This document shows, piece after piece, positions 7,381 through 49,859 of a stretch of 64,000 bases of DNA. Position 1 is the stretch's first letter. Every line of letters begins with the position of its first letter. The stretch spans positions 186,001 through 250,000 of the forward strand of contig NZ_BBLX01000004.1 in the NCBI RefSeq assembly GCF_000971155.1, in the 5' to 3' direction. The translations under genes were made by a program, and so were the position numbers. Under the pieces are notes generated by a model. The model had not been told where the DNA came from. It did no database searches and worked only from the letters and a program-made list of their open reading frames with translations. The DNA comes from Demequina maris (GTDB taxonomy: Bacteria > Actinomycetota > Actinomycetes > Actinomycetales > Demequinaceae).

Positions 7381-7577
7381 GGTTCGGTCCCCATCGCCGG
7401 CCCCCTCGGGGCCGCCGTCGACCCCTCAGGCTGACATTACGCGCGAGGTCCGACGGCCGCCTGGGGAGGGACGATGCGGCGGGCGCCTCCCGTGGGCAGG
7501 GCGCCCGGCGCGGGCCGAACCTATGCTGGACTGAGCAGCGGCGCCACGGGCGGCGCCGCACGTCCGGGAGCGCGATC

Positions 7578-24668: not shown

Positions 24669-24779
24669 CCCCAACCGATCTGCCTGGGGCGTCGTTATCG
24701 AATCGATAAGCGCGGCGAGCCGACGGCGGCACGGGATGCCACTAGGTTGCGAATCAATCGAGAAGCCGGGGGGGCGATC
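24669..24779 (+). promoter_or_regulatory. Conserved upstream cassette, copy 1
   Basis: Starts with CCCCAACCGATCTGCCTG and GGCGTCGTTATCG, then a variable part, then CTAGGTTGC...TCAATCGAG and a G-run at the start codon. The distance from CAACCGAT (24672) to the -10-like TAGGTT (24743) is 71 bp, identical in copies 2 and 3. Probable promoter plus activator site of the propeller gene that follows. Confidence 0.75.
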
Positions 24780-26051
24780 ATGGTGGTGACAGGCGATCAG
24801 GTGACGAGGACGTCCGTGCGCGCACGGACGTGGCGGGCGGCGGCCATGGCCGCGATCGCCATGACGCTCGGCGCGACGGCGGCGGTGCCCGCGACGGCCG
24901 CACCTGCGGCGACAGCGCCGATCCTCGAGGCCGCGCTGACCTCGACCGGCGACATGTCGACCCGGCGGTGCGCCAACGCCGCGGTCGAGCCCTGGATCGA
25001 CGGCACGACGTACACCGCGACGGCCGTCCTTCCGAAGGACGCCCGTCCGTTGTGGGCGCCCGACTCGCAGCACGCTGCCGTGATGGGGACGCGGATCAAG
25101 GTCCTCGACCGCGAGGGGCGCAAGGCGATCATCTCGAACGGGCTGAGGGTCGAGAACCTGAGCCCGCTCCGGTGGTCGCCCGACGGCTCGACCTTGCTGT
25201 TCGTCGCGTACTCCACCGACGGCGATCACGTCCTGTACCGCTACGACGTCGACACCCGCGAGCTGAGCGAGGTGACCCGCGCGTGGCGCATCAACGGCTA
25301 CGACGTGTCGCCGACCACGGGCGAGATCGCGGTGGGCCTGACGAACGGGGGCAGCGGGGGATACCGCATGGTCGCGGACGACCCCGACCTGGTGATCGTC
25401 GATCCGGTCACGTTGGTGCCGCGCGTGGTCATGGGCGGCGCGGGCTGGCCCGCGTACTCGCCCGACGGCCGCAGCATCGCGGCCTTCGACGGCATCGGCA
25501 TGGTCCTGCTGCGCGACGACGAGCTGATCGCGACCGCGCGACGGGACGACGTCGCGTTCGACGACTACCTGTTGAGCTACTGGGATCGCATGACCCCGAG
25601 CTGGTCGCCCGACGGCGCCTACGTGGCCGGGCTCGTGTCGCGCGGGGGCACCGTCGCGGTCGTCCGGGTCCTCACCGCCGATGGCGAGCTGGCGGAGACC
25701 TGGCGCACGCCGGTGCTCTACCGGATGACCTGGACTACCGAGCATGTGCTCGTCACGCGCGCCGGCTTCCAGGCGGCGTCGAACAACCTGGACACCGGCA
25801 CGCGCGCCTTCACGCCGCGCGGCGGCACCTTCGAGGACACGGTCGCCCACGGCGCGCAGATCACGAGCTACACCGGTTGCGGCGAGGTCATGGTGATGAA
25901 CAGCGTCTTCAAGAAGCGCACCTACCTCGCGGTCGCCGACGGGTGGCGGTACTACTACGGCCGCACGGCGATCGCGCCCGACGGGACCCAGCTCGCGCGC
26001 ATGTACGCGCCGGGCGAGACGAAGCCGCGCTGGTACGTCGTCGCGCACTGA
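24780..26051 (+). CDS. Exported PD40/TolB-like beta-propeller protein (array member 1)
   Basis: A 423-residue protein with a Sec-type signal peptide (RARTWRAAAMAAIAMTLGAT... ending ATAAPA). The mature part has repeated propeller blades marked by WSPDGS, YSPDGRS, WSPDGA and IAPDGT, the WD40-like PD40 signature of TolB-type propellers, with Cys at the first (RRCANA) and last (TGCGEV) thirds. Unlike the next three family members it has no membrane anchor or Thr/Ala/Pro linker. ATG 24780, preceded by a G-run, is chosen over an in-frame ATG at 24747 that falls inside the promoter cassette. The ligand is unknown. Confidence 0.75.
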   Translation: MVVTGDQVTRTSVRARTWRAAAMAAIAMTLGATAAVPATAAPAATAPILEAALTSTGDMSTRRCANAAVEPWIDGTTYTATAVLPKDARPLWAPDSQHAAVMGTRIKVLDREGRKAIISNGLRVENLSPLRWSPDGSTLLFVAYSTDGDHVLYRYDVDTRELSEVTRAWRINGYDVSPTTGEIAVGLTNGGSGGYRMVADDPDLVIVDPVTLVPRVVMGGAGWPAYSPDGRSIAAFDGIGMVLLRDDELIATARRDDVAFDDYLLSYWDRMTPSWSPDGAYVAGLVSRGGTVAVVRVLTADGELAETWRTPVLYRMTWTTEHVLVTRAGFQAASNNLDTGTRAFTPRGGTFEDTVAHGAQITSYTGCGEVMVMNSVFKKRTYLAVADGWRYYYGRTAIAPDGTQLARMYAPGETKPRWYVVAH

Positions 26052-26134
26052 CGCGGATCATCCCCGGGGACGATGTGCCGAGAACCCGCGCCCAGATAGC
26101 GTCGTTCCAGGTAGACCGAACAAGGAGCGAGAAC

Positions 26135-26443
26135 ATGGCGGTCAAGGTTGGTCACTCGCTGGCGGAGCGCTTCCCTGGCCTGGCGGGGGAGTGGCACCCG
26201 ACGAAGAACGGCCAGCTCACTCCCGCAGGTATCCACGCCCGCTCGTGGCAGCAGGTCTGGTGGCAGGACGATCTCGGTCACACCTGGGAGGACCGCGTCC
26301 GTGCCCGCACCGGCCGCAAGCCGCGGGGCTGCCCCCGCTGCGACGCCGGCGAGAACTACGTGCCGCGCGACTACTGGGCCGAGAACCGGTCCTCCTCGCA
26401 GGGCGGTGTCCTCGGGCCGCTGGGCGGTCCGCTCGGCCGGTGA
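26135..26443 (+). CDS. Zinc-ribbon domain protein (DUF4379-like)
   Basis: A 102-residue protein beginning VGHSLAERFPGLAGEWHPTKNG, given here as residues 4-25, a pattern found in repeated 'probable zinc-ribbon' domains with HTWEDRV and CPRC following. Only one CxxC pair (GCPRCDAG) remains; the first Cys pair of the classical domain is replaced by WWQDDLGH. The tail is Gly/Pro/Leu-rich. Function unknown; related domains occur in HNH or mobile-element-linked proteins. AAGGAG precedes the ATG. It sits as a passenger inside the propeller array. Confidence 0.7.
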   Translation: MAVKVGHSLAERFPGLAGEWHPTKNGQLTPAGIHARSWQQVWWQDDLGHTWEDRVRARTGRKPRGCPRCDAGENYVPRDYWAENRSSSQGGVLGPLGGPLGR

Positions 26444-26450
26444 GGAACGC

Positions 26451-26560
26451 CCCCAACCGATCTGCCTGCGGCGTCGTTATCGGATCGAGACGCGACGCGT
26501 AGCCCGTTCGGCACTCGATGCCGCTAGGTTGCTCGTCAATCGAGAACCCTGGGGGCGGAG
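26451..26560 (+). promoter_or_regulatory. Conserved upstream cassette, copy 2
   Basis: Begins 8 bp after the preceding stop with CCCCAACCGATCTGCCTG and GGCGTCGTTATCGGATCGA; TAGGTT at 26525-26530 is again 71 bp after the C of CAACCGAT (26454), and TCAATCGAG plus a G-run precede the start. Confidence 0.78.
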
Positions 26561-28261
26561 TTGAGCGACGAGGCGCAGGCGCCGAAGACCGACGGCACGG
26601 GATCGGCGTGGTCCGAGTGGGCCGCGACCATGCGGCGACCGCAGATCTGGGTGCCGATGGCGGCGGCCACGACCGTGATCGCCGTCGTGGTCGGCCTCGT
26701 GGTCGCGAACGCGGGATCCGACGGCTCGACCGACGCCGCCGCGCTCCCCTCGAGCACCGCCACGCCGACCGCGACCACCTCATCGGAGCCCGCGCCCTCG
26801 GCCACCGCATCGTCCGGGGCGGGCTCCAGCGCCGAGCCGTCGCCGAGCGCCTCGGTGAGCGCCTCCGCGTCGCCCGAGCCGTCCGTCGAGCCGTCGACCG
26901 AGCCGTCGGTCGCGCCGGTCGTGTACGAGCTCCCGAACCTCACCGTCGCGACTGAACCGCTCGCCCCGTCGTATCCGGAGCTGTCCGGCACCTCGCTCGC
27001 CCGGTCGATCGACTGGGGCGACTGGACCGGCGAGCTGATCTGCAGCGACGACGCCGACAAGGTCAAGCGATCCCAGGTGAGCAACTACTGGCAGGAGGCG
27101 CGCGACGCCTACGGCCGGAAGAAGGGCGAGGCCGCCGGCACCGCCGACGTCCTGCGCGTGGGCGGCGGGAACGCCGACGAGTACTCGCTGTGGTCGCCGG
27201 ACTCCTCGGCGTTCGTGACCTTCGCGGGTGGGGGCTACCACCGCGCGAATGCCGACGCCGTCCTGCTGGTGACCAGGGACGGCTCCAAGGTGAACCTCAC
27301 GAGCCGTGCCGGAGGGTCGGCCGACGGCTGGAACACGGCGCGCTGGTCGGCCGACGGCACGCGCGTGGGCTTCGTCATGCGCAAGGGCGACGACTCGAGG
27401 TGGGTCGTGGTCGCGGACTCCGCCGGCAAGATCCTCGGCACGGTGGGGCCCTACGAGTTCCTGAACGGCTTCGACCTGAGCCCCGACGGCACGTCCGTGA
27501 TCATCGGCAAGGGTGCCCGTGGCAGCCGGACGCCGGTGTTGGCGGAGCGCGGCATCGACATCGTCGACCTCGCCACCGGTGAGGCATCCGAGATCTTCGG
27601 GCGCGTGGGCTTCCCGTCGTACTCGCCCGACGGCAGCCGGATCGCGTACTTCGGCGACCCCGACTACGACGGCCGCTACGCGGCGTACGTGCAGGATCTG
27701 TCGTCCGGTCACGTCACGCAGCTCGGCGAGCAGCGCTACCTGCAGTTCGACCTCGACTGGAACGCCGACTGGGATCGCTTCGCGCCGGTGTGGTCGCCCG
27801 ACGGCACCCGCGTCGCGGCGACCGTGCCGCGCGCGGAGGACGACGCGAAGATGAACGTCCTCGTCGTCGCGCCGGACGGCACCGGCGGCCGCGAGTACAA
27901 GGTCAACAGCGCGCTGCGATCCGTGTGGAGCCCCGACGGGGAGATGCTCGCGGCCGGCAAGAGCGGCGCCGTGACCGTGGTGCGGCTCTCCGACGGCAGG
28001 TCGACGTGGCTGCGCAACCGCATGGCGCTCGCGTGGGCGCCCGGCAACGAGCTCGTCGCGTACGCCCGCGTGTGCGGGTCCAGGATGTGGGCCACGGTGT
28101 CCATCGCGCCGTTCGAGAAGACCGTGACGCCCGTGCATGCCCCGACCGGCTGGGTCGCGAACGGCTGGGCGCTCGTCTCGCCCGACGGTACGCGCGTGGC
28201 CCAGCAGCTCTACGGCGAGGGCGCGACGCAGGCCGTGTTCTACCTCTCGAAGGTGGCCTGA
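26561..28261 (+). CDS. Membrane-anchored PD40 beta-propeller protein (array member 2)
   Basis: A 566-residue protein: ~28 cytosolic residues ending MRRPQIWVP, one transmembrane helix (AAATTVIAVVVGLVVANA, about residues 33-50), a Ser/Thr/Ala/Pro linker to about residue 115, then a propeller with WSPDSSAF, WSADGTRV, LSPDGTSV, YSPDGSRI, WSPDGTRV, WSPDGEML and VSPDGTRV blades. Topology implies an external propeller. The start is TTG at 26561, placed after a G-run as in its paralogues; no ATG fits. The substrate is unknown; it shares the promoter cassette of copies 1 and 3. Confidence 0.78.
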   Translation: MSDEAQAPKTDGTGSAWSEWAATMRRPQIWVPMAAATTVIAVVVGLVVANAGSDGSTDAAALPSSTATPTATTSSEPAPSATASSGAGSSAEPSPSASVSASASPEPSVEPSTEPSVAPVVYELPNLTVATEPLAPSYPELSGTSLARSIDWGDWTGELICSDDADKVKRSQVSNYWQEARDAYGRKKGEAAGTADVLRVGGGNADEYSLWSPDSSAFVTFAGGGYHRANADAVLLVTRDGSKVNLTSRAGGSADGWNTARWSADGTRVGFVMRKGDDSRWVVVADSAGKILGTVGPYEFLNGFDLSPDGTSVIIGKGARGSRTPVLAERGIDIVDLATGEASEIFGRVGFPSYSPDGSRIAYFGDPDYDGRYAAYVQDLSSGHVTQLGEQRYLQFDLDWNADWDRFAPVWSPDGTRVAATVPRAEDDAKMNVLVVAPDGTGGREYKVNSALRSVWSPDGEMLAAGKSGAVTVVRLSDGRSTWLRNRMALAWAPGNELVAYARVCGSRMWATVSIAPFEKTVTPVHAPTGWVANGWALVSPDGTRVAQQLYGEGATQAVFYLSKVA

Positions 28262-28271
28262 GCGCCGGACG

Positions 28272-28379
28272 TCCCAACCGATCCGGCTGCGGCGTCGTTA
28301 TGGGATCGAGACGCCGAACGGCGCCTGAGCGGTCTCGGGCGTCGATAGGTTGCAGGTCAGTCGATCCGCTGGGGGCAGC
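28272..28379 (+). promoter_or_regulatory. Conserved upstream cassette, copy 3
   Basis: TCCCAACCGATC at 28272-28283, GGCGTCGTTATGGGATCGAG shortly after, TAGGTT at 28346-28351 (71 bp from the C of CAACCGAT at 28275), then TCAGTCGAT and a G-run before the ATG. Confidence 0.76.
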
Positions 28380-29999
28380 ATGAACGAGCACGAGACGGCA
28401 CCGGAGCCGGCCGGCGACGGGGCGCGCCCCGCAGGCTGGGCGGCTGTGCTGCGTCAGCCGAAGGTGTGGATCCCCACCGCCGCGGCGGTGACCGTGATCG
28501 CGCTGTCGGTCGGCCTGATCGTGACCAACGCACGGGCGGACGATGCGCGGGCCGCGGCGGAGCTCCCGGCGGCGAGCGCCTCGCCCAGCACGACCGCGAC
28601 GACCGAGCCCGACGCGGCGGCCGAGCCCGGCGAGGCGACGAGCACCGCATCGGCCTCGCCCACCGCGACCGCGAGCCCATCCGCGACGCCCGACGCCGAG
28701 CCCACGGCCGCCGCCGATGCCGACGACGCCGCCGACGCGCAGGCCGCCGCGGAGCGGGCCGCGCACGCGTGCGTCCCGGGCGACCCCGTCGCCGTCCCCG
28801 CACGGTCGACCACCCAGGTCCTGCCCGGCGACGCGGGCGCGACCACCACCGACATCACACCCAAGGCCACCCAGCTGTATCCCGGGTACACCGAGGTGAG
28901 CTTCTCCGCCGACGGCACCCGCCTCCTCACGATCGAGTCCGGCGAGGGCCGCTACACGGTCCGCCTGCTGAACGCGGGCACCATGGCGTCGGTCCTCGAC
29001 CTCGAGTCGCTCTCGGACGCGAATCCCGAGGCCCAGGCCGCGTGGGACCCCGCCGGCACGCGGGTCGCCGTCGCGCGCGGCCTCGCCGACGACTCCCTCG
29101 AGATCTCCACGGTGGAGGCCCGCACCGCGCAGCACAAGGTGCTCGCGACGATCCCGAACAGCGGCGCCGAGTCGGTCGCGTGGTCCGCGGACGGCTCGTG
29201 CCTCGCCATCGCCGTGCGCGGACCGGTGGGATGGGACGACCACGACGACCCGTCCGTGCACACGATCACCGTGGTGCGGCTGTCCGACGGCGCGATCACG
29301 GAGATCGGCCCCGGCGCGATGCCTGTGTGGACCGCCGACGGCTCGCTCGTGTTCTGGCGCGTCGACGCGGGCAGGGTGGCGCTGTGGCGCAGCTCGGCCG
29401 ACGGCGTGGAGCAGTCGCGCGTGGGCTCCGGAGCCGGCAAGCGCTGGAGCGACAACGCCACGGTGAGCGCGCCGATCGCATCGTCGGACGGCACCCGGGT
29501 CGCGTACGTCGACGAGCGCGGCCCGGTCTCGGTCCGCGTCGCGGGACAGGACGGCTCGGGCGACCGTGAGGTCGCGCGGCTCGACCTCTACTGGGCGACG
29601 GTCCAGTGGATGCCGGGAGAGCAGGCCCTGCTGGTGCGTGGCGGCAAGAAGGCCACCTCGACCATCGGCATGTGGACGGTCGACCTCGCGACCGGCACGG
29701 TCACGAGGCTGAAGGTGCCCCGTGCGGCGGGCGAGATCCTCAACACCGGCACGCCGCTCCCGGACGGGTCGGGCGTGCTGACGACGCTCGGGAGCCCGCC
29801 CGGAGGCTCGGACCTGCGGACGATGCGCATCGTCCTCGTGCGCGACGGCGTCACCACCCAGCTGGGCGAGCCCTTCTACGGGAGCTGGGCCTCGGCGCCC
29901 GCCTGGTCGCTCGACGGCGACACCCTCGTCGTGAGCGCCTGGACGGCGCTGAGCATCCCCAGGGACGTGCTCGGGCACCTGGTGGTCACCCGCCGCTGA
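28380..29999 (+). CDS. Membrane-anchored PD40 beta-propeller protein (array member 3)
   Basis: A 539-residue paralogue of array member 2: cytosolic start with VLRQPKVWIP, a helix AAAVTVIALSVGLIVTNARA (residues about 33-52), a long Ala/Thr/Ser/Pro/Asp-rich linker to about residue 125, and a propeller with FSADGTRL, WDPAGTRV, WSADGSCL, WTADGSLV, ASSDGTRV and WSLDGDTL blades. The C terminus HLVVTRR is shared with member 4. One Cys (HACVPGD) follows the linker, also as in member 4. Function unknown; the anchored, outward-facing propeller suggests binding or sensing at the cell surface. Confidence 0.77.
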   Translation: MNEHETAPEPAGDGARPAGWAAVLRQPKVWIPTAAAVTVIALSVGLIVTNARADDARAAAELPAASASPSTTATTEPDAAAEPGEATSTASASPTATASPSATPDAEPTAAADADDAADAQAAAERAAHACVPGDPVAVPARSTTQVLPGDAGATTTDITPKATQLYPGYTEVSFSADGTRLLTIESGEGRYTVRLLNAGTMASVLDLESLSDANPEAQAAWDPAGTRVAVARGLADDSLEISTVEARTAQHKVLATIPNSGAESVAWSADGSCLAIAVRGPVGWDDHDDPSVHTITVVRLSDGAITEIGPGAMPVWTADGSLVFWRVDAGRVALWRSSADGVEQSRVGSGAGKRWSDNATVSAPIASSDGTRVAYVDERGPVSVRVAGQDGSGDREVARLDLYWATVQWMPGEQALLVRGGKKATSTIGMWTVDLATGTVTRLKVPRAAGEILNTGTPLPDGSGVLTTLGSPPGGSDLRTMRIVLVRDGVTTQLGEPFYGSWASAPAWSLDGDTLVVSAWTALSIPRDVLGHLVVTRR

Positions 30000-30070
30000 G
30001 CCGGTCCTCGGGCCCGGTCGCGAGCCCCAAAACGGGGCAGTCCGGACATCCCCCCGGTGGCATCGCGTGA

Positions 30071-30147
30071 CACCTCCGGAGGTGGTTCCCGAGGCGCGCC
30101 GGGTGAGGCTAATCTACGGGGACAGTTGACCGACCCTTGGGGGACCG
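30071..30147 (+). promoter_or_regulatory. Divergent promoter region of array member 4
   Basis: A perfect 14-bp palindrome CACCTCCGGAGGTG (30071-30084) is followed by -10-like TAATCT (30110-30115) and TTGGGGGACCG before the ATG. The -10 to start distance (38 bp) matches the other three genes (34-37), but the CAACCGAT block is absent. Confidence 0.5.
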
Positions 30148-31626
30148 ATGACGGACGGGGCGCCCGGGCCCACCGCTCGTCGCAGGCGCGCGTCCCGGCG
30201 CCTCTGGATCCCCGCGGCGCTCGGCGCGATCGCCCTCGCCGTCGCCCTCGGCGTCGACGTCGCGCAGTCGAAGGTCGAGGCCGCCGAGAGTGTCGCCGCC
30301 TCCCCGAGCGTGACGGGAGACGACGCCTCTTCCCTCGGCCCCAGCGCTGCTCCGGACCTGGACGAGACCGCCTCCTCCGCATCGTCCATCCGCGCGGCGG
30401 GCGACGCCGCGCCCGCAGGCGTCTGCATGCCCGCGCCGGTCCCGACCACGACCGTGAAGGTGGGTGCCTCGGTGCTCCCGACGGACTCGGTCGCGTCCAA
30501 CGAGACGCTCGACCCGAGCCAGACCGGCGTCGCGGTGACCTACGCCGCGCCGGCCTTCTCCGCCGACGGCAAGCGCCTCACCACGCTCCTGCGCCACGAT
30601 GGCGCCTCCACCGTGGAGCTGTTCAGCACGCCCACGATGACGTCGATGGTCGCGCTTGGCAGCGACTGGGTGTCGGCGCCGGTCGAGTGGGATCCGTCGG
30701 GCACCACCGCCGCGGTCGCGCGCCGCATGAAGGACGGGGCGCTCGAGCTCGTGACCGTCGACGGCGCGAAGGGCGCCGTGTCGTTCCTCGCCAAGTTCCC
30801 CTCGTCCGTCGCCGCCGGCATCGCCTGGTCCGACGACGGTGCGTGCGTCGCGATCGCGGTCACGGACGACCTCTCGGCGGCGTCCGACGCGCCCCGCTAC
30901 GAGGACTACGAGGTCGCGGTCGTGCGCGTCGCCGACGGCGCGGTGGCGTGGATCGGCTCCGGGGCGTACCCGGAGTTCCTGCCGAGCGGCGACGTGGTCT
31001 ACATCGGCCCGCGCGCGAACGGTCGCCTCGCGTACTGGAGGGCCTCCACCGATGGCCTCGAGCGCACGATGATCGGCGCGCTGTCCGAGGACCCGGGCGA
31101 GCCGCGCCTCAGCGCCGACCGCAGCGCGATCGCGTACGTCGTCGAGGGCGACGAGCTCGAGGTGCGCGTCGCGCCCACGGGCACCCGCGGCAGCCGCGCG
31201 GTCGCACGCATCGAAGGAGCGACCTGGGGCTACGCGAAGTGGATGCCCGACGACTCGTCGCTGCTCGTCACCGGCGGCCTGCCCTCCGGCCGCACGCGCC
31301 TGTGGACCGTCGACATCGAGACCGGCGAGGTCACCCGCGTCCGGACCCCGGGCCTCACCCGCGCCGAGCGGATCTCCTACGCCGCTCCCGTGCCCGACGG
31401 CTCCGGCATCGTCGCGATGGTGAACGCGACGCGCGACGGCGCGCCCGCCTCGCACCCGGTCCTGCTGAGCCAGGGCCGGTCCACGGACCTCGGCAAGGCT
31501 GTCGCGGGCTGGGCCTCGTGTGCGCCCACTTGGTCGCCCGACGGCGACGCCCTCGTCACGTGCCACGGACGCTCGACGGTCGACGGCAAGACCGTCTCCG
31601 GCCGCCTGGTCGTCACCCGCCGCTGA
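30148..31626 (+). CDS. Membrane-anchored PD40 beta-propeller protein (array member 4)
   Basis: A 492-residue family member with a short Arg-rich cytosolic start (TARRRRASRRLWIP), one helix (AALGAIALAVALGVDVAQ, about residues 22-39), a Ser/Ala/Asp linker, a Cys segment (GVCMPAPVP) and a propeller with FSADGKRL, WDPSGTTA, WSDDGACV, LPSGDVVY, WMPDDSSL, PVPDGSGI and WSPDGDAL blades. It ends RLVVTRR like member 3. It is the most divergent copy and has a different upstream region. Function unknown. Confidence 0.76.
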   Translation: MTDGAPGPTARRRRASRRLWIPAALGAIALAVALGVDVAQSKVEAAESVAASPSVTGDDASSLGPSAAPDLDETASSASSIRAAGDAAPAGVCMPAPVPTTTVKVGASVLPTDSVASNETLDPSQTGVAVTYAAPAFSADGKRLTTLLRHDGASTVELFSTPTMTSMVALGSDWVSAPVEWDPSGTTAAVARRMKDGALELVTVDGAKGAVSFLAKFPSSVAAGIAWSDDGACVAIAVTDDLSAASDAPRYEDYEVAVVRVADGAVAWIGSGAYPEFLPSGDVVYIGPRANGRLAYWRASTDGLERTMIGALSEDPGEPRLSADRSAIAYVVEGDELEVRVAPTGTRGSRAVARIEGATWGYAKWMPDDSSLLVTGGLPSGRTRLWTVDIETGEVTRVRTPGLTRAERISYAAPVPDGSGIVAMVNATRDGAPASHPVLLSQGRSTDLGKAVAGWASCAPTWSPDGDALVTCHGRSTVDGKTVSGRLVVTRR

Positions 31627-31863: not shown

Positions 31864-31914
31864 ATGCAGACGATCCTTGTACGAGTTACCAGGCGCGCGG
31901 ACCGCGACCGGTAG
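31864..31914 (+). CDS. ilv leader peptide
   Basis: ATG to TAG encodes MQTILVRVTRRADRDR. The adjacent Ile-Leu-Val and a further Val within eight codons are the amino acids made by the downstream pathway. Ribosome pausing here when they are scarce would change which hairpin forms. The -10 lies 7 nt before the ATG, so translation would start at or near the mRNA 5' end. It resembles the corynebacterial ilvB leader in size and in its Arg-rich tail. Confidence 0.75.
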   Translation: MQTILVRVTRRADRDR

Positions 31915-35591: not shown

Positions 35592-38500
35592 TCAGGACGA
35601 TGCGGCGGACGGCTTGTCCCCGAAGCCGCACGTCGAGCGCCACTCGCCGACGGCCGCGAGATAGGTCTGCCACTCGTCGGCGGTGAGGTCGCGTCCCGCA
35701 GACGCGCAGGCGGCGTCGCGCAGCATCTCGGGGTCGAGCGTCCAGATGCCGATGCCCTCCACCTCGTCCACGGCGACCTCGAGCCCGTCGGACCGAAGCC
35801 ACACCGGCCAGGCGAGCGGCGCGTGTGACACGAACGGACCGGCGACGCGGGCCCCGGTCTCCGACTCGTAGAGCACGCTGCTCTGGTCGAGGTCTGCGGT
35901 GAGGAACACGTCCCCCGCCTGAGAGAACTGGAAGCGTCCGATCTCCGCGCGCGACCCCTCGCTGGTGGCGATCGGCTCCAGCTCCGTCGTGAAGCGACCG
36001 ATCATCGGACCGACCTGAGCCACGACCATGCCGTCGTCGTTGATCGCCGCGTTCTCGAGGCCGTCGACGAAGGGCGAGAGCGCCTCGCCGGTGCGGAGGT
36101 CGAAGACCTGCGCTCCGACGCCGACCCCGGCGAGGTGCGAGGACACGACGACGTAGTCGTCGTTCGGCGAAGCGACGATGTGCGAGGCGATGCCCTGCAC
36201 GTCGATCACGGGGCCGTCGGGCTCACCCGTCTCCAGGTCGAAGGGCCACACCGTCCCGTCAGGGTCCGCGGCGATCTGCCGGTCGCCCGCACCGGTACGG
36301 AAATGCTCGTAGACGTCCGCACCGATCGGATAGGTGAGGGTGCGCCGCTGCGCCTCGAGGTCGTAGCGGCCGATGTCGTTCGTCGAGGGGAAGTAGGCGA
36401 CGACCGCGTCATCCGAGGCCCAACTCAGGCCGTCGGCATCGCCCTCGACCTCGGCCTCGACCTCGTCCGACCGCACGTTCCACACCGACCACCCGCACGG
36501 GTCGCCGTCACGCCCGAGCCTGCAGACCAGCAACGCGTCCCCGTCCGACCGGTACCCGTCTCCGACGATGTAGCCGGGTCCCGCGACGATGCGGTGGACC
36601 GGGCCGTGCCCGTCGAGCGCCCATCGGGTCGCGACCGGCTCGCGCCGGCCGAAGGCGAGGAGCTCGGCGTTGGAGGCCACCAGCGATCCGGTCGCGCCGT
36701 GCTGGACGTCGAATCTTGTCTGCGTCGGCCCGCCGAGCGCCAGTGTGCGCTCCTGGATCTCGCCGAACCAGCCGCCGCAGTAGTACGTCCGGCCCGCCGG
36801 ACGCGCGGCCATGGTCGAGCACGCACCCTCCTGATCGTTCGGCAGCGTGACCGTCCACGCCACGTCGCCGGAGCCGAGGTCGACGAGGGCCACGTGGAAC
36901 GCGCCCGAGGTCAGCAGCCGGCCGTTCGCCGTGACGGCGATGCCCAGCCCGGTTGCCGCCTCGTCGACCGGCCACGCGTCGAGCTCGCGCCCGGTCGCCG
37001 GGTCGATGACGTGCACGGTGCCCGCGGCCACGGCCACGAGGTTGCCGTCGGGTGCGGCCGCCACCGCGATGCCGTCGGGGTCGTCCGCCGACAGCCGCAC
37101 CGACGTGCGCAGCGCGAGGGTGCGCGCGTCCCACAGGTCGACCGAACCGGACGGGTGGTCGACGGTCGCGACCACCGCACCGCCCGCGCCGATCGCGACA
37201 TGGAGCGGGACATCGGCGCCCTCCGGCACGGTCGCTTCCGCGGTGGCGAGGACGGTGCCCTCGACGAGGTCGTATGCGGTGAGGGTGCCGCACGCGGTGG
37301 GATGGTCGCATCCAGTCGACTGCGCGAGCACCACCGCGAGCGATCCGTCCGCAGCCACCGCGACGGCACGATCACCCGCCTCGATCGCATCGTTCGTGAC
37401 GGTGCGGAACGCCGTGAGCTCGGCGGCGTCCCTCACCTCGATGCCGCGCGCCGATGCGACGACGATGTCGCCTTCCGCGTCGGCCGCGCCCGCGATGCCC
37501 GAAGCCGCCGGCAGCACGATCGATTGGATGAGCTCGGGATGCGAGGCCGCGACGTCGAACAATGCCGCGCGCGAGCGCGGGTCGTCGGGCCAGCGCTCGT
37601 AGGCCTCGACCGCGAGGAGAGCGGCGGTCTCTCTCGACGCGCCGGCGAGCGCTGTGACGTCGTCGGCGAGCGCCGCGACCAGCTCGTCGTCGGCCCGGGC
37701 GGTCGCCGTGCGGTGGTTCAGGATCGCCACCGCGGCGAGCACGAGAGCGGCGACGGCGGCGACTCCACCGGCCGCGTTGGCGAAGCGCACCCGTCGGCGA
37801 TTCCGCGCGTCGCGGGCCGCCGCGTCGGCGACCACGCTCGCCTCGCGCTGCCGCTCGACCTCGGATGCGGAGAGGAACTCGCTTTCGACCTCGGCCAAGG
37901 TGTCGGTCGATGCGTGCTGCCAGGAGCGCGCCGCGTCGAGCCGAGAGCCACGGTAGAGATCGTCGGCGTTCCTTCCTCCGGCCTCCCACGTGCGCGCCGC
38001 CGCCGCCAGGTGAGCGACGAGGCGGTGGGTCTCCGCGTCCTCGTCGAGCCACGCCGTGAGCCGAGGCCACTCGCGGGTGAGCGCCTCATGCGCGAGGAGG
38101 TAGTCGTCGGCGCGTGCGACGAGCAGACGTGCCGAGACGAGCCGCGCGACCGCCTCCGCACGGGCGGGCGTGGTCTCGACCGCCGCGCTGTCGGCGGCAT
38201 GGAGCGCCACGGTGCCGGTGGCGTCGACGGTGACGAGGCGGCGCATGACGGCCCGGCACTCGTCGCGCTGGGCGGAGGTGAGGTTCACGAACACGCGCTC
38301 GGCCGAGCGGGCGACGGCGCCCGCGAGCCCGCCGGTGGCCTCGTACGCCTGGATCGTCAAGGTCGCCCCTTCGCGGCGCTCCCATGTCGCGGCGAGCGCG
38401 TGGGAGAGCAGCGGGAGCGCCGAGTCGACTCGCTGCGCGTCGTGCAGGATCACGTCGACGAGGCCGTGCTCGATCGCGAGGCCGGACCGCAATGCGGGCT

Positions 38501-39755
38501 GCTCGACGACCGCCCGGATCGCCGCCGCGGTCGGTGGCGCGACGAGATGGAGCCCGGAGGTCACGAGGGGGCCGATCGCCGCTTGCGCGGCGCAGGCGTC
38601 GAGGTGCCGCGACTGGAGCGCCACGACGACCGGCACCCCGTCCGCATGAGCGGATGCCAGCGACTTGAACAGTGCCGCCGCGCGTCCTTCGTCGGTGAGC
38701 GCCGCGCCCACGTCGTCCACGATCAGCGGTCGTGAGGCCGAGGCGAGGGCGACGTCGGACGCGGTGGCCGTGGCATCCAGCAGCACCGGCTCGAGCCCGC
38801 GCCGCCTCAGGGCGGGCACGACGCCCGCCCGGAGGATCGAGGACTTCCCGATCCCCGAGGGCCCCGACACCGCCGCGAAGCGCGTGCGGTCCAGCGCCTC
38901 GAGCACCGTGTCCACGTCGTCCTCTCGCCCGAAGAACAGCTCCGCGTCCTCGGGCTCGTACTCCGCCAAGCCCTTGTAGGGGCAGGCGCGGCTCGGAGGC
39001 CGCGCGGCGGGGGCGGCCAGGAGCCGCTCGTCGTGCCGCAGGATCGCCTCCTCGAGCGAGACGAGCGACGGCCCGGGGTCGATGCCGAGCTCGTCGACGA
39101 GCAGCCGTTGCGCACGGCGCACGGTCGCAAGCGCCTCCGCCTGCCGCTCGCATCGGTACTGCGCGAGCGCGAGCGCGTGCCACCGGCGCTCGCGATAGGG
39201 CTCGGCGGCGCACAGGCCGACGGCCTGTTCGGCCACGGCCCGGTGGTCGCCTGCGGCGAGGCGCGCCTCGAGCAGATCGTCGTCGGCCGATGCGCGCAGC
39301 TCGCGGAGCCGATCCGCCTCGTCGCGAGCGGGCGGCCAGTCCTCGAGGACCGCGTAGGGCCGCCCGTGCCACATGCCGATGGCGTGCTCGAGGCTGGTGA
39401 CCGCGCGCTGTTGCTCGCCGTCGGAGGCGAGCTCGCGGGCGCGGTTCACGGCGGCCTCGAAGTCGTCGGCGTCGATGTCGAGCACGCCGCCCTCCCGGCG
39501 CGGGACGATGCGATAGCCACCCGCGACCGTCGCGATCGCGCTGGTGCCGAGCGCCTTGCGCAGGCGGCCGATCGATGCCTGGAGCTGCTTCGCCCACGTC
39601 GTGGGCGGCGCCCCATGCCACACGGCCTCGGCAAGCGCGTCGGCATCGACCTCGGCCGGCCGGCACACGAGCAGCGCCTCGAGCACAGCGCGCTCCCGCG
39701 GGCTGACTCTCGGCTCGTCCGAGACGCCCCTCCCCCCGAGGACTGCGACCCTCAC
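35592..39755 (-). CDS. BTAD-STAND-WD40 transmembrane regulator (module 1)
   Basis: A 1,387-residue regulator. Order: OmpR-type winged helix (about 1-90, TTWAKQLQASIGRLRKALG), BTAD bacterial activation domain (to about 245, ending LLVDELGIDPGPSL), an nSTAND1-like NTPase from CPYKGLAEYEPEDAELFFGRE (residues about 258-278) with Walker A GPSGIGKSS (about 297) and a degenerate Walker B LIVDDVG, one hydrophobic segment (FANAAGGVAAVAALVLAAVA, about 657-676), then a WD40-like propeller and a Cys-paired tail (AACASAGRDL...WRSTCGF). GTG 39755 aligns with the paralogue starts. It is divergent from a secreted protein gene, with 11-bp-spaced repeats between. It probably binds those repeats; signal unknown. 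Confidence 0.82.
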   Translation of the reverse strand: MRVAVLGGRGVSDEPRVSPRERAVLEALLVCRPAEVDADALAEAVWHGAPPTTWAKQLQASIGRLRKALGTSAIATVAGGYRIVPRREGGVLDIDADDFEAAVNRARELASDGEQQRAVTSLEHAIGMWHGRPYAVLEDWPPARDEADRLRELRASADDDLLEARLAAGDHRAVAEQAVGLCAAEPYRERRWHALALAQYRCERQAEALATVRRAQRLLVDELGIDPGPSLVSLEEAILRHDERLLAAPAARPPSRACPYKGLAEYEPEDAELFFGREDDVDTVLEALDRTRFAAVSGPSGIGKSSILRAGVVPALRRRGLEPVLLDATATASDVALASASRPLIVDDVGAALTDEGRAAALFKSLASAHADGVPVVVALQSRHLDACAAQAAIGPLVTSGLHLVAPPTAAAIRAVVEQPALRSGLAIEHGLVDVILHDAQRVDSALPLLSHALAATWERREGATLTIQAYEATGGLAGAVARSAERVFVNLTSAQRDECRAVMRRLVTVDATGTVALHAADSAAVETTPARAEAVARLVSARLLVARADDYLLAHEALTREWPRLTAWLDEDAETHRLVAHLAAAARTWEAGGRNADDLYRGSRLDAARSWQHASTDTLAEVESEFLSASEVERQREASVVADAAARDARNRRRVRFANAAGGVAAVAALVLAAVAILNHRTATARADDELVAALADDVTALAGASRETAALLAVEAYERWPDDPRSRAALFDVAASHPELIQSIVLPAASGIAGAADAEGDIVVASARGIEVRDAAELTAFRTVTNDAIEAGDRAVAVAADGSLAVVLAQSTGCDHPTACGTLTAYDLVEGTVLATAEATVPEGADVPLHVAIGAGGAVVATVDHPSGSVDLWDARTLALRTSVRLSADDPDGIAVAAAPDGNLVAVAAGTVHVIDPATGRELDAWPVDEAATGLGIAVTANGRLLTSGAFHVALVDLGSGDVAWTVTLPNDQEGACSTMAARPAGRTYYCGGWFGEIQERTLALGGPTQTRFDVQHGATGSLVASNAELLAFGRREPVATRWALDGHGPVHRIVAGPGYIVGDGYRSDGDALLVCRLGRDGDPCGWSVWNVRSDEVEAEVEGDADGLSWASDDAVVAYFPSTNDIGRYDLEAQRRTLTYPIGADVYEHFRTGAGDRQIAADPDGTVWPFDLETGEPDGPVIDVQGIASHIVASPNDDYVVVSSHLAGVGVGAQVFDLRTGEALSPFVDGLENAAINDDGMVVAQVGPMIGRFTTELEPIATSEGSRAEIGRFQFSQAGDVFLTADLDQSSVLYESETGARVAGPFVSHAPLAWPVWLRSDGLEVAVDEVEGIGIWTLDPEMLRDAACASAGRDLTADEWQTYLAAVGEWRSTCGFGDKPSAASS

Positions 39756-39806
39756 GCCTTGAGTGTCGGGCTGTGGTTCCGGGTGGTCAACACCTGCCGC
39801 GCGAAC

Positions 39807-39856
39807 GCATACCGGATGCATACCCGGGCGCCGCTATTCGAGACCAGGTGCATACG
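39807..39856. promoter_or_regulatory. Direct heptamer repeats in module 1
   Basis: GCATACC at 39807-39813 and 39818-39824 (11 bp apart), and GCATACG at 39850-39856. SARP/BTAD regulators bind direct heptamers at 11-bp spacing near a -35, so this is the probable binding site controlling the divergent pair. Confidence 0.65.
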
Positions 39857-40677: not shown

Positions 40678-43600
40678 CTACCAGCTCGGCTTGGAGTACT
40701 GCGGGCACGTCTTCCGCCACTCGCCGACGTCCGCGAGGTACGCGTCCCACTCCTGCTGCGACAGGTTCCGCCCGGCGGTCTCACAGGCGGCCTGATACAT
40801 GTGCGCCGGATCCACGTCCCACACGGCGACGCCCTCCTCGACGTTCACCGCGATCGCGAGCCCGTCGGGCCGGAGGAAGCCCGCGGTGGCGCCCGGGGAG
40901 TTGGCGTCGAGCGGGATGCCGATCAGCTCGGCCCCAGCGGTGTCGAACAGCGAGACGGAGCCGTCACGAGCCGAGACGAGGTACCGCGTGCCATCCGCAC
41001 TGAACTCGAGCGCGTCGAGCAGGCCGCCGGAGCCGAGCGTCTCGCCCCGCTGGACGAAGTCCGAGTCGAACCGGCGCACGTATTGATCGTGGATCGCGAT
41101 GGCGGTGCCATCCGAGGTGAGGGCCGCATTCCGTACGAACTTGTTCGGGAACCCCACCTGTCGGCCCGTCCTCGAGTCGAGGAACTGCACGATCGGACCC
41201 TCATCGAGCATCGACGTGATGGCGACGAGCGCACCCTCGGCCGATGCGGACACGTGCGTCGGCACACCGATGACGTGGATCGCGTCGCCGATGCGCTGCA
41301 AGGTGCTCGTGTCGTAGGTCTCGACGGTCTTGTCGTCGAAGAGGGCGTACGCGCGCGTGCCGTCCGCGGAGACGAACAGCGCCGATGCGTCGGCCGGGAC
41401 GACGTCGGCGGCCACCTGCACTCCCGTGGCGGCGTCGTAGACGTCGCGTGTGCCGGTCGAGGCCGTGAGCCCGATCACGCGTCCCTCGCCGAACCAGGCC
41501 AGGTCCTCGAGGTCGGCGGGCGCGTCGCGCACCGCGACGTCCGACGCGACATCCCAGACGCGGTAGCCGTCCGTCGCGCCGTACGCGTTCGCGACGGGGT
41601 CGCGTCGCGCGACGATGAGCCCTCGACCGTCCGCGCTCCAGCGGTCGACCGCCTCGTGGGCGCGTGCGACCACCCGGGTGATGGGGCCGGTGCCGTCGAG
41701 GCTCCATCGCGACACGACGCGCCCGCGCGTCGCGGTCGAGAGCAGCGTCGCCTCGTCCGGGGTCACGGCGAGCGCGTCGACGACGCCGTTCTGCGCCGCG
41801 CGCACCTGCCCGATCGGCGCGCCCGTGGCGAGGTCGTACTCGCGGATCACGCCGACCTCGCCGGCGCAGAAGACGCGGCCGGTTGCGGGCGCGACCGCGA
41901 GCGCGAGGCACGCTCCCGGTGCGACGACCACGTGCTCGTGTGCCCAGAGCACGCGCCCCGAGTTGAGCGAGAGCGCGAGCAGGCCGTCGTCGCCCGCCGC
42001 TACCACGGTGCCGTCGTCGGTGACGATCGTGGCGGTGTTCGCGTGGCGTGCGGGCGACTCGAGGGTGCGCGTCACCGTGGCGCTGGGGACGTCGACCACG
42101 AGGATGCGGCCGTCGAGGGTGGTGAGCAGCACGGTGACGTCGTCGACGAACACCACCGCCCCCGGTGACTCCACGACGCGGGAGTCCTGCGCACCGACCG
42201 CGACCGTCCCGAGGTCGCGGCCCGTCGCCGAGGCTCTCACCGTGAGGTCTCCCGTGCGGCCGTCGACGACGGCGACGTAGGTGCCGTCGGGGCTCACGGC
42301 GAGCCCGCCTGGCTCGACCGCGTCGCTGTCGAGCGGCGTCACGGCAAGCTCGGTCTGCTGGTCGAGGTCGAAGGTGGCGAGGGTCGGCCGTTCCTCGGCG
42401 CCGCTGCGGCTGTCCGGCGCCACGAGCGCAGCGACGCTTCCGTCGTCGCTCACCGCCACGTCCGGAGCGTCGGGCCAGGACCACGCGGCCGACGTGGCGA
42501 TGTCGACCTCCTTCGCTCCGGTCTCGAGCCGGCGGACCTCGACCCCGGTCGTGAAACCCAGCACCAGGTGGAGCCCGTCGGCGGTGACAGCCGTGTGCGG
42601 CACCTGCTGGTACCGCACGTGAAGGTCGCCGCGGAAGCCAGGGTCGGTGGCGAAGGCGGTGAGGAGCGCGCCCTGCGCGGCCAGAGAGTCCGGCCATCGA
42701 AGGTAGGCCTCGGCCGCGAGCAAGAACCCGACGTCGCGTGAGGCTCCCATCACGGCCGCGAAATCCTTGGTGATCGCCTCGAGGTGCGCCCGATCGGTCT
42801 GCTCCCGCGCGGTCGTGCCGCGCGACTCCGCGACCCGGTACGCGACGGTCGCCGCCGCGATGCCGACGAGCGCCGTGGCGGCCGCCGCGACGGCCCACCG
42901 GCGCATCGTCCTCACGCGCGCCCGCGAGCGCGACTCGCGCCGCTCGGCCTCCTCCGCGGCCGCACGCTCGGCCTCCTCGGCGTCGCGCGACGCGACCAGG
43001 AACGTGCGCTCGAGCGGGGTGAGGGCATCCTCGTCGCGGTCGGCCCAGTCCCACGCGATCGCGAGCCGTGGCCCCCGGTACAGGTCCGCCGCGGGCCTTC
43101 CGAGCGAGTCCCACGTGGCCGCCGCGGTCGACAGGTGCCCGAGCGCGCGCTGGCCCTCAGCGTCGGCCTCCAGCCAGCCGCGAAGGCGCGGCCAGGCGCG
43201 CACGAGCGACTCGTGCGCGAGCTCGAGGTGGTGCTCGCGCGCGCTCACGAGCCTCGCCTGGACCAGCCGGCCGACCACCCGCTGCAGGTCCTCGTCGGCC
43301 AGCGTGCGTGAGTCGACCGGGTGGGAGACGACGGCCCCTGCCTCCGTGAGGGTGACGAGCCGGCGCAGGATGAGCGCGCAGCGGCGCCGGTCGTCGACCG
43401 GGAGGTTGGTGAAGAGGAGCTCGGCCGAGCGCGCGACCGCGCCGCGGAGCCCACCCGAGGCCTTGTAGCCGTCGATCGTGAGCGTGGAGCCCTCGCGTCG
43501 CTGCCAGGTCTCGGCGAGGGCGTGCGACAGGAGCGGCAGCGCTCCCGTGGCGGCCTCGGCGTCCGCAAGCACCACGTCAGGGAAGCCGTGCTCGAGCGTG

Positions 43601-44880
43601 AGGTGCGCGTGCCGAGCCGGCTCCTCGATCGCCGCCCGGAGCGCGTCCGCGCGCAGGGGCGTCACGAGGTGCAGGCTCGAGAGCACCAGCGACCCGACGG
43701 CCGGATCGGCGGCGCACGCGTCGAGGTGGTCCGAGCGGACGGCGATGGCCACGCCGCCGCCGCCGCGGTGGTGCGCGGCGAGCGCGTCGCAGATCTCACG
43801 GGACGTCCCTGCGGCCAGCGACGCGGAGAAGGCGGTCTCGAACTGGTCGATCGCGATGACCGCGTGCGCGGGCGCGCGGGTGATCTCCTCGAGCGCCGCG
43901 CCCGACGGCGACACCTCGACCATCGTCGTGCCGCGCGCCGTGAGCGCCGGCTGCACGCCCGCGCGCAGGAGTGACGACTTGCCCGTCCCGGACGCGCCCG
44001 CCAGCACCAGGAAGCGCATGCGATCGAGGGTCGCCACCGCACGCGCGATGTCCGCGTCGCGCCCGAAGTACACGTCAGCGTCGCCCGGCTCGTAGGCGCT
44101 GAGCCCCTTGTAGGGGCATCGGTCGTCCGGGGCGGGCAGCGCGGGTGCGACGGACAGGTCCTCGTCCTGACGCAGGATCGCCTGCTCCAGATCGACGAGC
44201 GCGGGCGAGGGATCGAGGCCCAGCTCGTCCCGCAGGACCGCCCGCGCGCGCCGCAGCGCCGCCAGCGCATCGGCCTGCCTCTCGCATCGGTACAGCGCGG
44301 TCGCCAGCGCGATCCAGCGCGTCTCCCGCAGCGGCTCCGCCGCGGCGAGCGCGGACGCGGTCGCCGCGACGCCGCGATGGTCGCCGGAGGCGAGGCGCTC
44401 GGCGAGGAGGTCGTCCTCCGCCTGGCGGCGCAGCTCGGTGAGCCGCTCGATCTCCACGGCGGCCGGCGGCCAGTCCGCGACCGCCTCGTAGGGATCGGAG
44501 GTGCGCCACAGCCCGAGCGCCCTCTCCAGGGCGACGACGGCGCGCCCGTGCTCGCCCTCGCTTGCGAGGGTGGCGGCACGCGCGACCTCGTCCTCGAAGA
44601 CGTCGACGTCGACCGCACCGCGAGGGAGCTCGAGGCGGTACGCCCGGTCGACCGTGACGATGGAGCCGTTGCCGAGCGAGGTCCGCAGCCGCCATACCGA
44701 CCCCTGGATCTGCTTCGCCCACGTGCTGGGGGGCGCGTCGCCCCAGACCGCCTCCGCGATGACCTCCGGGCTGACCGCGGTGGGCCGCATGACCAGGAGG
44801 GCAGCGAGGACCGAGCGCTCCCGCCGATTGTGGTGGGGTGCCTCCTTGCCGGCGGTCTCGCCGAGGACCTCCACGGTCAC
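40678..44880 (-). CDS. BTAD-STAND-WD40 transmembrane regulator (module 2)
   Basis: A 1,400-residue paralogue with the same order: winged helix (STWAKQIQGSVWRLRTSLG, about 45-63), BTAD (to VLRDELGLDPSPALVDLEQ), STAND NTPase from CPYKGLSAYEPGDADVYFGRD (about 255) with Walker A GASGTGKSS and a classical Walker B AVIAIDQFE, one transmembrane segment (WAVAAAATALVGIAAATVA, about 660-680), WD40-like propeller, and tail AACETAGRNL...WRKTCPQY. Its NTPase is the least degenerate of the three. The start is taken as GTG 44880 (V-T-V-E-V-L aligned with paralogues); GTG 44874 is an alternative. Divergent from a repeat-peptide gene. Confidence 0.82.
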   Translation of the reverse strand: MTVEVLGETAGKEAPHHNRRERSVLAALLVMRPTAVSPEVIAEAVWGDAPPSTWAKQIQGSVWRLRTSLGNGSIVTVDRAYRLELPRGAVDVDVFEDEVARAATLASEGEHGRAVVALERALGLWRTSDPYEAVADWPPAAVEIERLTELRRQAEDDLLAERLASGDHRGVAATASALAAAEPLRETRWIALATALYRCERQADALAALRRARAVLRDELGLDPSPALVDLEQAILRQDEDLSVAPALPAPDDRCPYKGLSAYEPGDADVYFGRDADIARAVATLDRMRFLVLAGASGTGKSSLLRAGVQPALTARGTTMVEVSPSGAALEEITRAPAHAVIAIDQFETAFSASLAAGTSREICDALAAHHRGGGGVAIAVRSDHLDACAADPAVGSLVLSSLHLVTPLRADALRAAIEEPARHAHLTLEHGFPDVVLADAEAATGALPLLSHALAETWQRREGSTLTIDGYKASGGLRGAVARSAELLFTNLPVDDRRRCALILRRLVTLTEAGAVVSHPVDSRTLADEDLQRVVGRLVQARLVSAREHHLELAHESLVRAWPRLRGWLEADAEGQRALGHLSTAAATWDSLGRPAADLYRGPRLAIAWDWADRDEDALTPLERTFLVASRDAEEAERAAAEEAERRESRSRARVRTMRRWAVAAAATALVGIAAATVAYRVAESRGTTAREQTDRAHLEAITKDFAAVMGASRDVGFLLAAEAYLRWPDSLAAQGALLTAFATDPGFRGDLHVRYQQVPHTAVTADGLHLVLGFTTGVEVRRLETGAKEVDIATSAAWSWPDAPDVAVSDDGSVAALVAPDSRSGAEERPTLATFDLDQQTELAVTPLDSDAVEPGGLAVSPDGTYVAVVDGRTGDLTVRASATGRDLGTVAVGAQDSRVVESPGAVVFVDDVTVLLTTLDGRILVVDVPSATVTRTLESPARHANTATIVTDDGTVVAAGDDGLLALSLNSGRVLWAHEHVVVAPGACLALAVAPATGRVFCAGEVGVIREYDLATGAPIGQVRAAQNGVVDALAVTPDEATLLSTATRGRVVSRWSLDGTGPITRVVARAHEAVDRWSADGRGLIVARRDPVANAYGATDGYRVWDVASDVAVRDAPADLEDLAWFGEGRVIGLTASTGTRDVYDAATGVQVAADVVPADASALFVSADGTRAYALFDDKTVETYDTSTLQRIGDAIHVIGVPTHVSASAEGALVAITSMLDEGPIVQFLDSRTGRQVGFPNKFVRNAALTSDGTAIAIHDQYVRRFDSDFVQRGETLGSGGLLDALEFSADGTRYLVSARDGSVSLFDTAGAELIGIPLDANSPGATAGFLRPDGLAIAVNVEEGVAVWDVDPAHMYQAACETAGRNLSQQEWDAYLADVGEWRKTCPQYSKPSW

Positions 44881-44933
44881 CAGTTCAGTCTTCGCGCGGC
44901 ACCGGCGACGGTCAAGGACTGTGGACGGCCCGC

Positions 44934-44951
44934 ACACCGCCGGAACACCGC
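44934..44951. promoter_or_regulatory. Direct heptamer repeats in module 2
   Basis: ACACCGC at 44934-44940 and 44945-44951, exactly 11 bp apart, with a third imperfect AGACCGG at 44955. The heptamer sequence differs from modules 1 and 3 but the spacing is the same. Confidence 0.6.
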
Positions 44952-45012
44952 GGGAGACCGGCGGAGATGCGCCGCGTGGTCCGTTGGAGGCGTCCCTGAA
45001 AGGAGCGCCACC

Positions 45013-45495
45013 ATGTCCCACCGCATCCACCTCTCCCACACGAGCCGGACCACGCTCGCCGCCGCCGCCATCGTCATCGCGCTCGTGGTCGGCGCGGTGC
45101 TCGCCGTCGGCATCCGCGCGTGGTCCGACCCCCGGCCTGGGCTCGGCTTCGAGCCCCCGCAGGTCGTCACCCGGGTCCAGGCCGTCGCCTATGTGCCCGA
45201 GCGCCATTCACAGTTCACGCTTGAGGACAACCTCTCGCCCATGGAGCCGCAGGCCTTCAACCTCAACGGCGTCGTCGACAAGGTCGCCTCGCAGCCGATC
45301 AGCGGCGGTGTCCCGCCGTACGCGGTCGACGGCTGGCACGCGCCCGCGACGATCCCGATCAGCGGCGGGCAGCCGCCCTACTCCTACGAGGGCTGGAGCG
45401 CGGACGGCTACGAGCCCATCGGCGGCGGCCTGCCCGTCTACGCCGAGGACGGCTACGAGCCCATGAGCGGCGGCGTGCCGGACTACGCCGAGTAG
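45013..45495 (+). CDS. Exported repeat peptide, Ser type (module 2)
   Basis: A 160-residue protein with an N-terminal signal anchor (TLAAAAIVIALVVGAVLAVGI, about residues 14-34), a short spacer, and four C-terminal repeats from about residue 95: PISGGVPPYAVDGW, PISGGQPPYSYEGW, EPIGGGLPVYAEDGY and EPMSGGVPDYAE, the last ending at the stop. No Cys is present. The repeats match those of the module 3 peptide, where Ser is replaced by Cys. AAAGGAG precedes ATG 45013. I do not know the family; candidates are a multi-core peptide precursor, a surface ligand for the propeller domain, or a structural repeat protein. Confidence 0.72.
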   Translation: MSHRIHLSHTSRTTLAAAAIVIALVVGAVLAVGIRAWSDPRPGLGFEPPQVVTRVQAVAYVPERHSQFTLEDNLSPMEPQAFNLNGVVDKVASQPISGGVPPYAVDGWHAPATIPISGGQPPYSYEGWSADGYEPIGGGLPVYAEDGYEPMSGGVPDYAE

Positions 45496-49714: not shown

Positions 49715-49765
49715 CCTTCCACTGTGGAACCGCGGACGCCCGCGGTCAAACGCCCGGCGGGTCGC

Positions 49766-49804
49766 GCATACCCCACGCATACCGGGCCGAGCAGGGCGCA
49801 TACC
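49766..49804. promoter_or_regulatory. Direct heptamer repeats in module 3
   Basis: GCATACC at 49766-49772, 49777-49783 (11 bp apart) and 49798-49804 (21 bp further). The heptamer is the same as in module 1, so the two regulators may recognise each other's sites. Confidence 0.68.
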
Positions 49805-49859
49805 GGGGCCTGGCGGGGCGGGTGTGTCCTGAAGGTGTCCCTGGAAGGAGGGCAAGATC

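Follow-up and report, generated by a model that had tools for sequence, protein, structure and literature searches.

The 64,000-nucleotide stretch of Demequina maris DNA analyzed here, hereafter the window, contains an array of beta-propeller genes lying between ilvD and ilvB-ilvC. Three of these genes are preceded by copies of one cassette, which comprises an upstream block (P1), a poorly conserved middle, a downstream block (P2) ending in TAGGTT, and a leader running to the start codon (ATG at 24780, TTG at 26561 and ATG at 28380). We consider it likely, with a probability of about 0.8, that this cassette combines two stacked promoters in one composite control region, in which P1 would be read by a SigE-like extracytoplasmic function (ECF) sigma factor, most likely the protein that we call ECF-A, and P2 would be of the housekeeping type. 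The features concerned are the following.

24670 to 24698, plus strand: P1 of propeller gene 1, putative ECF sigma promoter (-35 CCCAACC at 24670-24676, 16-bp spacer, -10 CGTTAT at 24693-24698)
24728 to 24748, plus strand: P2 element, copy 1 (dyad GGCACGGGATGCC, 2 bp, TAGGTT at 24743-24748 as putative housekeeping -10)
24780 to 26051, plus strand: propeller gene 1 (423 aa, PD40, signal-like N terminus)
26452 to 26480, plus strand: P1 of propeller gene 2, putative ECF sigma promoter (CCCAACC-N16-CGTTAT)
26510 to 26530, plus strand: P2 element, copy 2 (dyad GGCACTCGATGCC, 2 bp, TAGGTT at 26525-26530)
26561 to 28261, plus strand: propeller gene 2 (566 aa from a TTG start codon; a short tail on the cytoplasmic side, a single membrane anchor, a linker of Ser/Pro/Thr/Ala and then the PD40 propeller)
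28273 to 28301, plus strand: P1 of propeller gene 3, putative ECF sigma promoter (CCCAACC-N16-CGTTAT)
28331 to 28351, plus strand: P2 element, copy 3 (degenerate dyad GGTCTCGGGCGTC, which fails the dyad pattern, 2 bp, TAGGTT at 28346-28351)
28380 to 29999, plus strand: propeller gene 3 (539 aa; architecture as in gene 2)

The first-pass annotation of this DNA had described a cassette shared by the three genes, with 71 bp from the start of CAACCGAT to the start of TAGGTT in each copy and a middle that is not conserved, and our searches bear out these observations. The pattern CAACCGAT-N63-TAGGTT has three exact matches in the window (24672, 26454 and 28275, all on the plus strand) and none in 100 dinucleotide shuffles, and CAACC-N14..18-CGTTAT has no exact copy beyond these three in the strain's own genome (2.97 Mb, 22 contigs), so that a chance origin of the cassette could be ruled out. 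Among the three copies, identity amounts to 81 to 91% in the upstream block of about 43 bp, 41 to 53% in the 17 bp that follow it, 53 to 84% from there to TAGGTT, and 53 to 69% in the leader. As a separate observation, in the leaders (24749-24779, 26531-26560 and 28352-28379) and at the same place in locus L054, some copies resemble the -35 side of P1; in particular, the Demequina subtropica leader AACCGATCGGCTGGGGG resembles the P1 sequence CAACCGATCTGCCTGCGG.

ECF promoters typically carry AAC in the -35 and CGT in the -10 element, and ECF sigma factors usually control their own genes (PMC3426412). In all eight aligned propeller promoters, from six species, CCAACC and CGTTAT are always present and always 16 bp apart, in agreement with both signatures and with the expected spacer of 16 ± 1 bp. 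Furthermore, one match to the upstream block in D. gelatinilytica lies directly upstream of an ECF sigma factor gene. We then scored the motif CCCAACC-N15..17-CGTNNT (11 scored positions) upstream of 30 fetched loci of that ECF sigma family: 18 of the 30 reached 10 or 11, 12 of them with a perfect score, with the motif 16 to 41 nt upstream of the gene, and such scores were reached by at most 0.5% of shuffles. When only Demequina is considered, 24 of the 25 loci score at least 9. The spacer ahead of ECF genes is 16 or 17 bp, and the motif precedes the sigma gene itself in the case of the strain's own ECF-A and ECF-B and of most loci from relatives. In the own genome, CCCAACC-N16..17-CGTNNT occurs at seven sites, corresponding to the three propeller genes, two ECF sigma genes and two others. 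Because the upstream block occurs alone ahead of the genes of a single ECF sigma family, with the AAC and CGT signatures and a spacer of 16 to 17 bp, it is probably a promoter in its own right, of the ECF type, rather than an activator site. A spread of the motif beyond the genus was considered and discarded: the scan of 84,980 species genomes gave 21 matches, 5 of them in Demequina and the rest scattered over unrelated phyla, at about the level of chance.

Two sigma genes of this family are found in the own genome, ECF-A (G000:C21:177312-177848) and ECF-B (C11:41193-41672), whose products share 79% and 71% identity, respectively, with the D. gelatinilytica ECF sigma protein. The sequence CCCAACCGATC is common to the propeller promoters and the ECF-A promoter, and the ECF-B promoter differs from it (CCCAACCTTTTC). 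ECF-A (at least 77% identity) occurs in 7 of 37 Demequina genomes, and P1 precedes propeller genes in six of these seven and in none of the other 30, a co-occurrence that does not count as independent evidence since the seven genomes may form one clade. On these grounds, ECF-A is most likely the sigma factor that reads P1. Relatives match the Pfam models of sigma-70 regions 2 and 4, and the best NCBIfam match of the D. gelatinilytica protein is the SigE family TIGR02983; since the score of 114.3 bits lies below the curated cutoff of 141.55, we call the protein only SigE-like. In Demequina sp. SYSU T00192 and D. rhizosphaerae, a further ECF sigma gene of the same family is located inside the propeller array. 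It lies about 1.5 kb upstream of the propeller promoter, has a CCCAACC-N16-CGTTCC promoter of its own and is followed, at a 4-nt overlap, by a membrane-protein gene. The library searched contained no paper on Demequina sigma factors.

The membrane partner of the array-linked ECF sigma factor is a candidate anti-sigma factor or sensor. The product of propeller gene 1 of the window and the propeller found in this partner in D. gelatinilytica share 35% identity over 344 aa, and we therefore regard the propeller genes as relatives of the ECF partner gene. The predicted structure of the gene 2 product matches propellers, TolB among them; the mean confidence of the model is 55.3, low because the N-terminal third is disordered, and only the propeller part (about residues 217 to 500) is usable.

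As for P2, a GGCAY-N3-RTGCC dyad stands directly upstream of TAGGTT in two of the three window copies and is degenerate in the third. In general, the dyad takes the form GNCAY-N3-RTGNC and mostly lies 2 bp upstream of TA(A/G)G(G/T)T, the eight propeller promoters all having TAGGTT, TAGGGT or TAAGTT, in keeping with a TANNNT -10 element. Counts over 400 kb of the own genome, taken in stretches, plus the window, gave 7 occurrences of TAGGTT ahead of genes versus 0.1 expected and 4 of TAGGGT versus 0.3, numbers that are small. In 24 Demequina genomes, the pattern GNCAYNNNRTGNCNCTARGKT was matched 11 times, 8 at propeller genes and 3 elsewhere, two of the latter being the same pfk promoter. Two of the eight propeller matches, one in D. 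gelatinilytica and one in D. subtropica, lack P1 (the survey of propeller genes without this motif covered the five relatives whose arrays were fetched), and in the D. gelatinilytica copy the start codon follows TAGGGT after 6 nt, as in leaderless transcripts. P2 is thus probably a second promoter, of the housekeeping type and with no clear -35 element. The halves of the dyad do not keep RNA pairs (T-T, T-C and C-A mismatches occur), and since it pairs inconsistently as RNA, a DNA-binding protein is its likelier reader.

The upstream block was found ahead of propeller genes also in five relatives, namely, D. gelatinilytica, D. subtropica, D. phytophila (G020, G011 and G025), D. rhizosphaerae (G023) and Demequina sp. 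SYSU T00192 (G006). The 71 bp that the first-pass annotation took as invariant hold in the window and in two of these species, but three others have 70 bp; counted by copies, five have 71 bp from CAACC to TA(A/G)G(G/T)T and three have 70 bp, and the DNA between the blocks is 24 to 71% identical. The spacing is nearly, not absolutely, constant. Taking P1 to start 7 to 8 bp beyond CGTTAT and P2 about 7 bp beyond TAGGTT, we estimate from the sequence that the two transcription starts would be about 50 bp apart; polymerases could therefore not sit at both promoters, and their mutual exclusion is a plausible reason for the constant distance.

The comparison of the genes behind the cassettes showed that, among the three window genes, the promoters are more alike than the proteins, whose ectodomains share 17 to 25% identity in a joint alignment of the three and 27 to 29% for two pairs aligned pairwise. 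In the sister species G006 and G023, the genes at the same place (G006_P and G023_P1) are 95% identical in the promoter region and 93% in the anchor segment, versus 25% in the ectodomain, and the ectodomain type found directly behind the promoter in G006 recurs in the next gene of G023 (70%). The exchange thus affects the propeller, whereas the promoter, leader and anchor in front of it are retained, which helps explain the occurrence of one cassette ahead of otherwise different genes. It is possible, and we suggest it tentatively, that the ECF promoter, the near-fixed second promoter with its dyad operator, and the anchor form a portable 5' module that is kept while propeller ectodomains vary behind it, so that surface sensors or candidate anti-sigma factors would diversify under one sigma factor.

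We propose the following course of events. RNA polymerase with an ECF sigma factor of the SigE-like family would read P1 (CCCAACC-N16-CGTTAT) and start transcription near the conserved CGAGAC, 7 to 8 bp after the -10 element. P2, consisting of the dyad, TA(A/G)G(G/T)T and a short leader with a G-run, would act as a housekeeping-type promoter, the dyad of which may be bound by a regulator, and occupation of P1 by a polymerase would preclude that of P2 and vice versa, so that a fixed spacing could be favored. The products would be extracytoplasmic beta-propeller proteins, mostly membrane anchored and related to the ECF membrane partner. In the likely circuit, a signal would free the ECF sigma factor, which would then raise the expression of its own gene and of the propeller genes.

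Some observations weigh against this interpretation. Bases of the P1 spacer (GATC...GGCRT) are conserved beyond the needs of a sigma factor alone, which leaves room for a second bound protein. For P2, no TTGAC-like -35 element is conserved in the alignment at 16 to 19 bp, and TAGGTT might serve some other purpose; in the own genome, -35-like hexamers, CTTGAC and GTGACA among them, show a general enrichment ahead of genes. Moreover, the choice of the sigma factor follows from motif likeness and co-occurrence, which shared ancestry in one clade could also give, and one genome (G002) has ECF-A with no exact propeller P1. Finally, an absolute requirement for 71 bp is hard to reconcile with lineages that differ by 1 bp.

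The first-pass annotation had interpreted the cassette as a fixed arrangement of an activator plus RNA polymerase, a model in which the upstream block would bind an activator that recruits polymerase to a TAGGTT promoter from a fixed position. The part concerning a shared and nearly fixed layout stands, given its recurrence in five other Demequina species at 70 to 71 bp, and the maintenance of this distance in six species despite the changed middle, the lack of a -35 element in P2, as is often the case in activator-dependent promoters, and the conserved block bases beyond the -35 and -10 elements would all suit an activator. However, the block occurs by itself ahead of ECF sigma genes, with coding starting about 25 nt later and no TAGGTT following, its letters and its half-spacing of 16 to 17 bp are those of an ECF promoter, and two propeller genes have the dyad-TAGGGT element with no block. 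An activator site would be expected to act only together with a core promoter at a set distance; given the solitary position of the motif ahead of the sigma genes, it was rejected as the principal explanation and appears unlikely to us. We give even less credit to the idea that only P1 is a promoter, with the dyad and TA(A/G)G(G/T)T belonging to an RNA element in its leader, whose length would be fixed by RNA folding. The element would indeed be part of the P1 transcript, always equally far from its start, but its dyad halves do not keep their pairs, the consensus fold is weak (covariation term of -0.42), and the element also occurs 6 nt ahead of a start codon in the gene with no P1; an RNA leader or riboswitch was dropped on account of this weak fold and of the lack of a match to any Rfam family.

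A different question, which concerns the spacing only and is compatible with both P1 and P2 being promoters, is whether the constant distance has any function, since related copies may simply have descended with almost no insertions or deletions. Such an origin is favored by the lack of independence among tandem paralogues, by the difference of 1 bp between the two lineages, and by strong divergence being confined to about 17 bp; however, the ectodomains of the three genes are only 17 to 29% identical, and two promoter lineages in six species keep 70 to 71 bp with middle DNA that is 24 to 71% identical. We regard a functionless spacing as conceivable but rather doubtful.

On this reading, the cassette represents an element of known kind, set in a composite layout and subject to module exchange. 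Like autoregulated ECF promoters, such as those of ECF41 (TGTCACA, 16 ± 1 bp, CGTC; PMC3426412), P1 is bipartite, with an AAC-type -35, a CGT-type -10 and a spacer of 16 to 17 bp, and is found upstream of the sigma gene as well as of a few targets; unlike in ECF41, the Demequina elements are CCCAACC and CGTTAT or CGTNNT, the sigma factor is SigE-like, and the targets encode extracytoplasmic propeller proteins. For sigma-E of Streptomyces coelicolor, whose sites overlap HrdB promoters, the ECF holoenzyme is described as interfering with housekeeping promoters (PMC10771440). In both cases, ECF and housekeeping sites are close enough that a polymerase at one could obstruct the other, but in Demequina the putative P1 lies upstream of the putative P2 at a near-fixed 70 to 71 bp. 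An ECF sigma factor tied to a propeller-type domain recalls the ECF57 sigma factors with C-terminal WD40-like extensions (PMC8999054), except that the Demequina propeller belongs to a separate membrane-anchored protein and is not fused to the sigma factor. The proteins also share PD40 repeats and the predicted fold with TolB-type beta-propellers; unlike TolB, they have a membrane anchor and a Ser/Pro/Thr linker, and they score far below the TolB cutoff.

In this interpretation, an anonymous repeated block becomes a testable ECF sigma regulon in a little-studied actinobacterial genus, tied to extracytoplasmic propeller proteins. The copies offer a natural series of stacked ECF and housekeeping promoters at near-constant spacing, suited to the study of two polymerases sharing one region, and the way in which ectodomains have been exchanged while promoter and anchor stayed constant suggests that sensing surfaces could diversify with no change in control.

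Two further genes belong to the array.

26135 to 26443, plus strand: small gene for a treble-clef zinc finger (DUF4379), situated between propeller genes 1 and 2 and lacking the cassette
30148 to 31626, plus strand: propeller gene 4 (492 aa; P1 and dyad absent; -10-like hexamer TAATCT at 30110-30115)

The product of gene 4 likewise begins with a short tail in the cytoplasm, a single membrane anchor and a linker rich in Ser/Pro/Thr/Ala. The region ahead of this gene (30020-30147) is conserved in G006 and G023 (GCTAATCTACGGGGACAGTTGAC...CTTGGGGGA) with neither P1 nor dyad, and is a different control region within the same array.

Outside the cassettes, a 10-mer (GGACGATGCG/CGCATCGTCC) occurs throughout the window (for example, at 7470, 15064, 31681 and 62566), with 250 copies in 464 kb of the own genome versus about 2 expected from base composition, equally on both strands and at densities of 0.79 per kb in noncoding and 0.45 per kb in coding DNA. 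It is preferentially followed by (G/C)NGG, forms some inverted pairs between genes, is frequent in five close congeners too, and has no copy in 14 short loci taken from more distant genomes. In appearance, it recalls DNA uptake sequences or repetitive extragenic palindromes (REPs), a type of repeat not known to us from actinobacteria. Adjoining the propeller array, three giant genes lie in tandem on the minus strand (35592-39821, 40678-45207 and 45557-49996) and encode SARP-type regulators with BTAD, nSTAND1 and a WD40-like C-terminal part. Finally, a short open reading frame ahead of ilvB, MQTILVRVTRRADRDR (31864-31914), contains Ile, Leu and Val codons and looks like the leader peptide of an ilvB attenuator.

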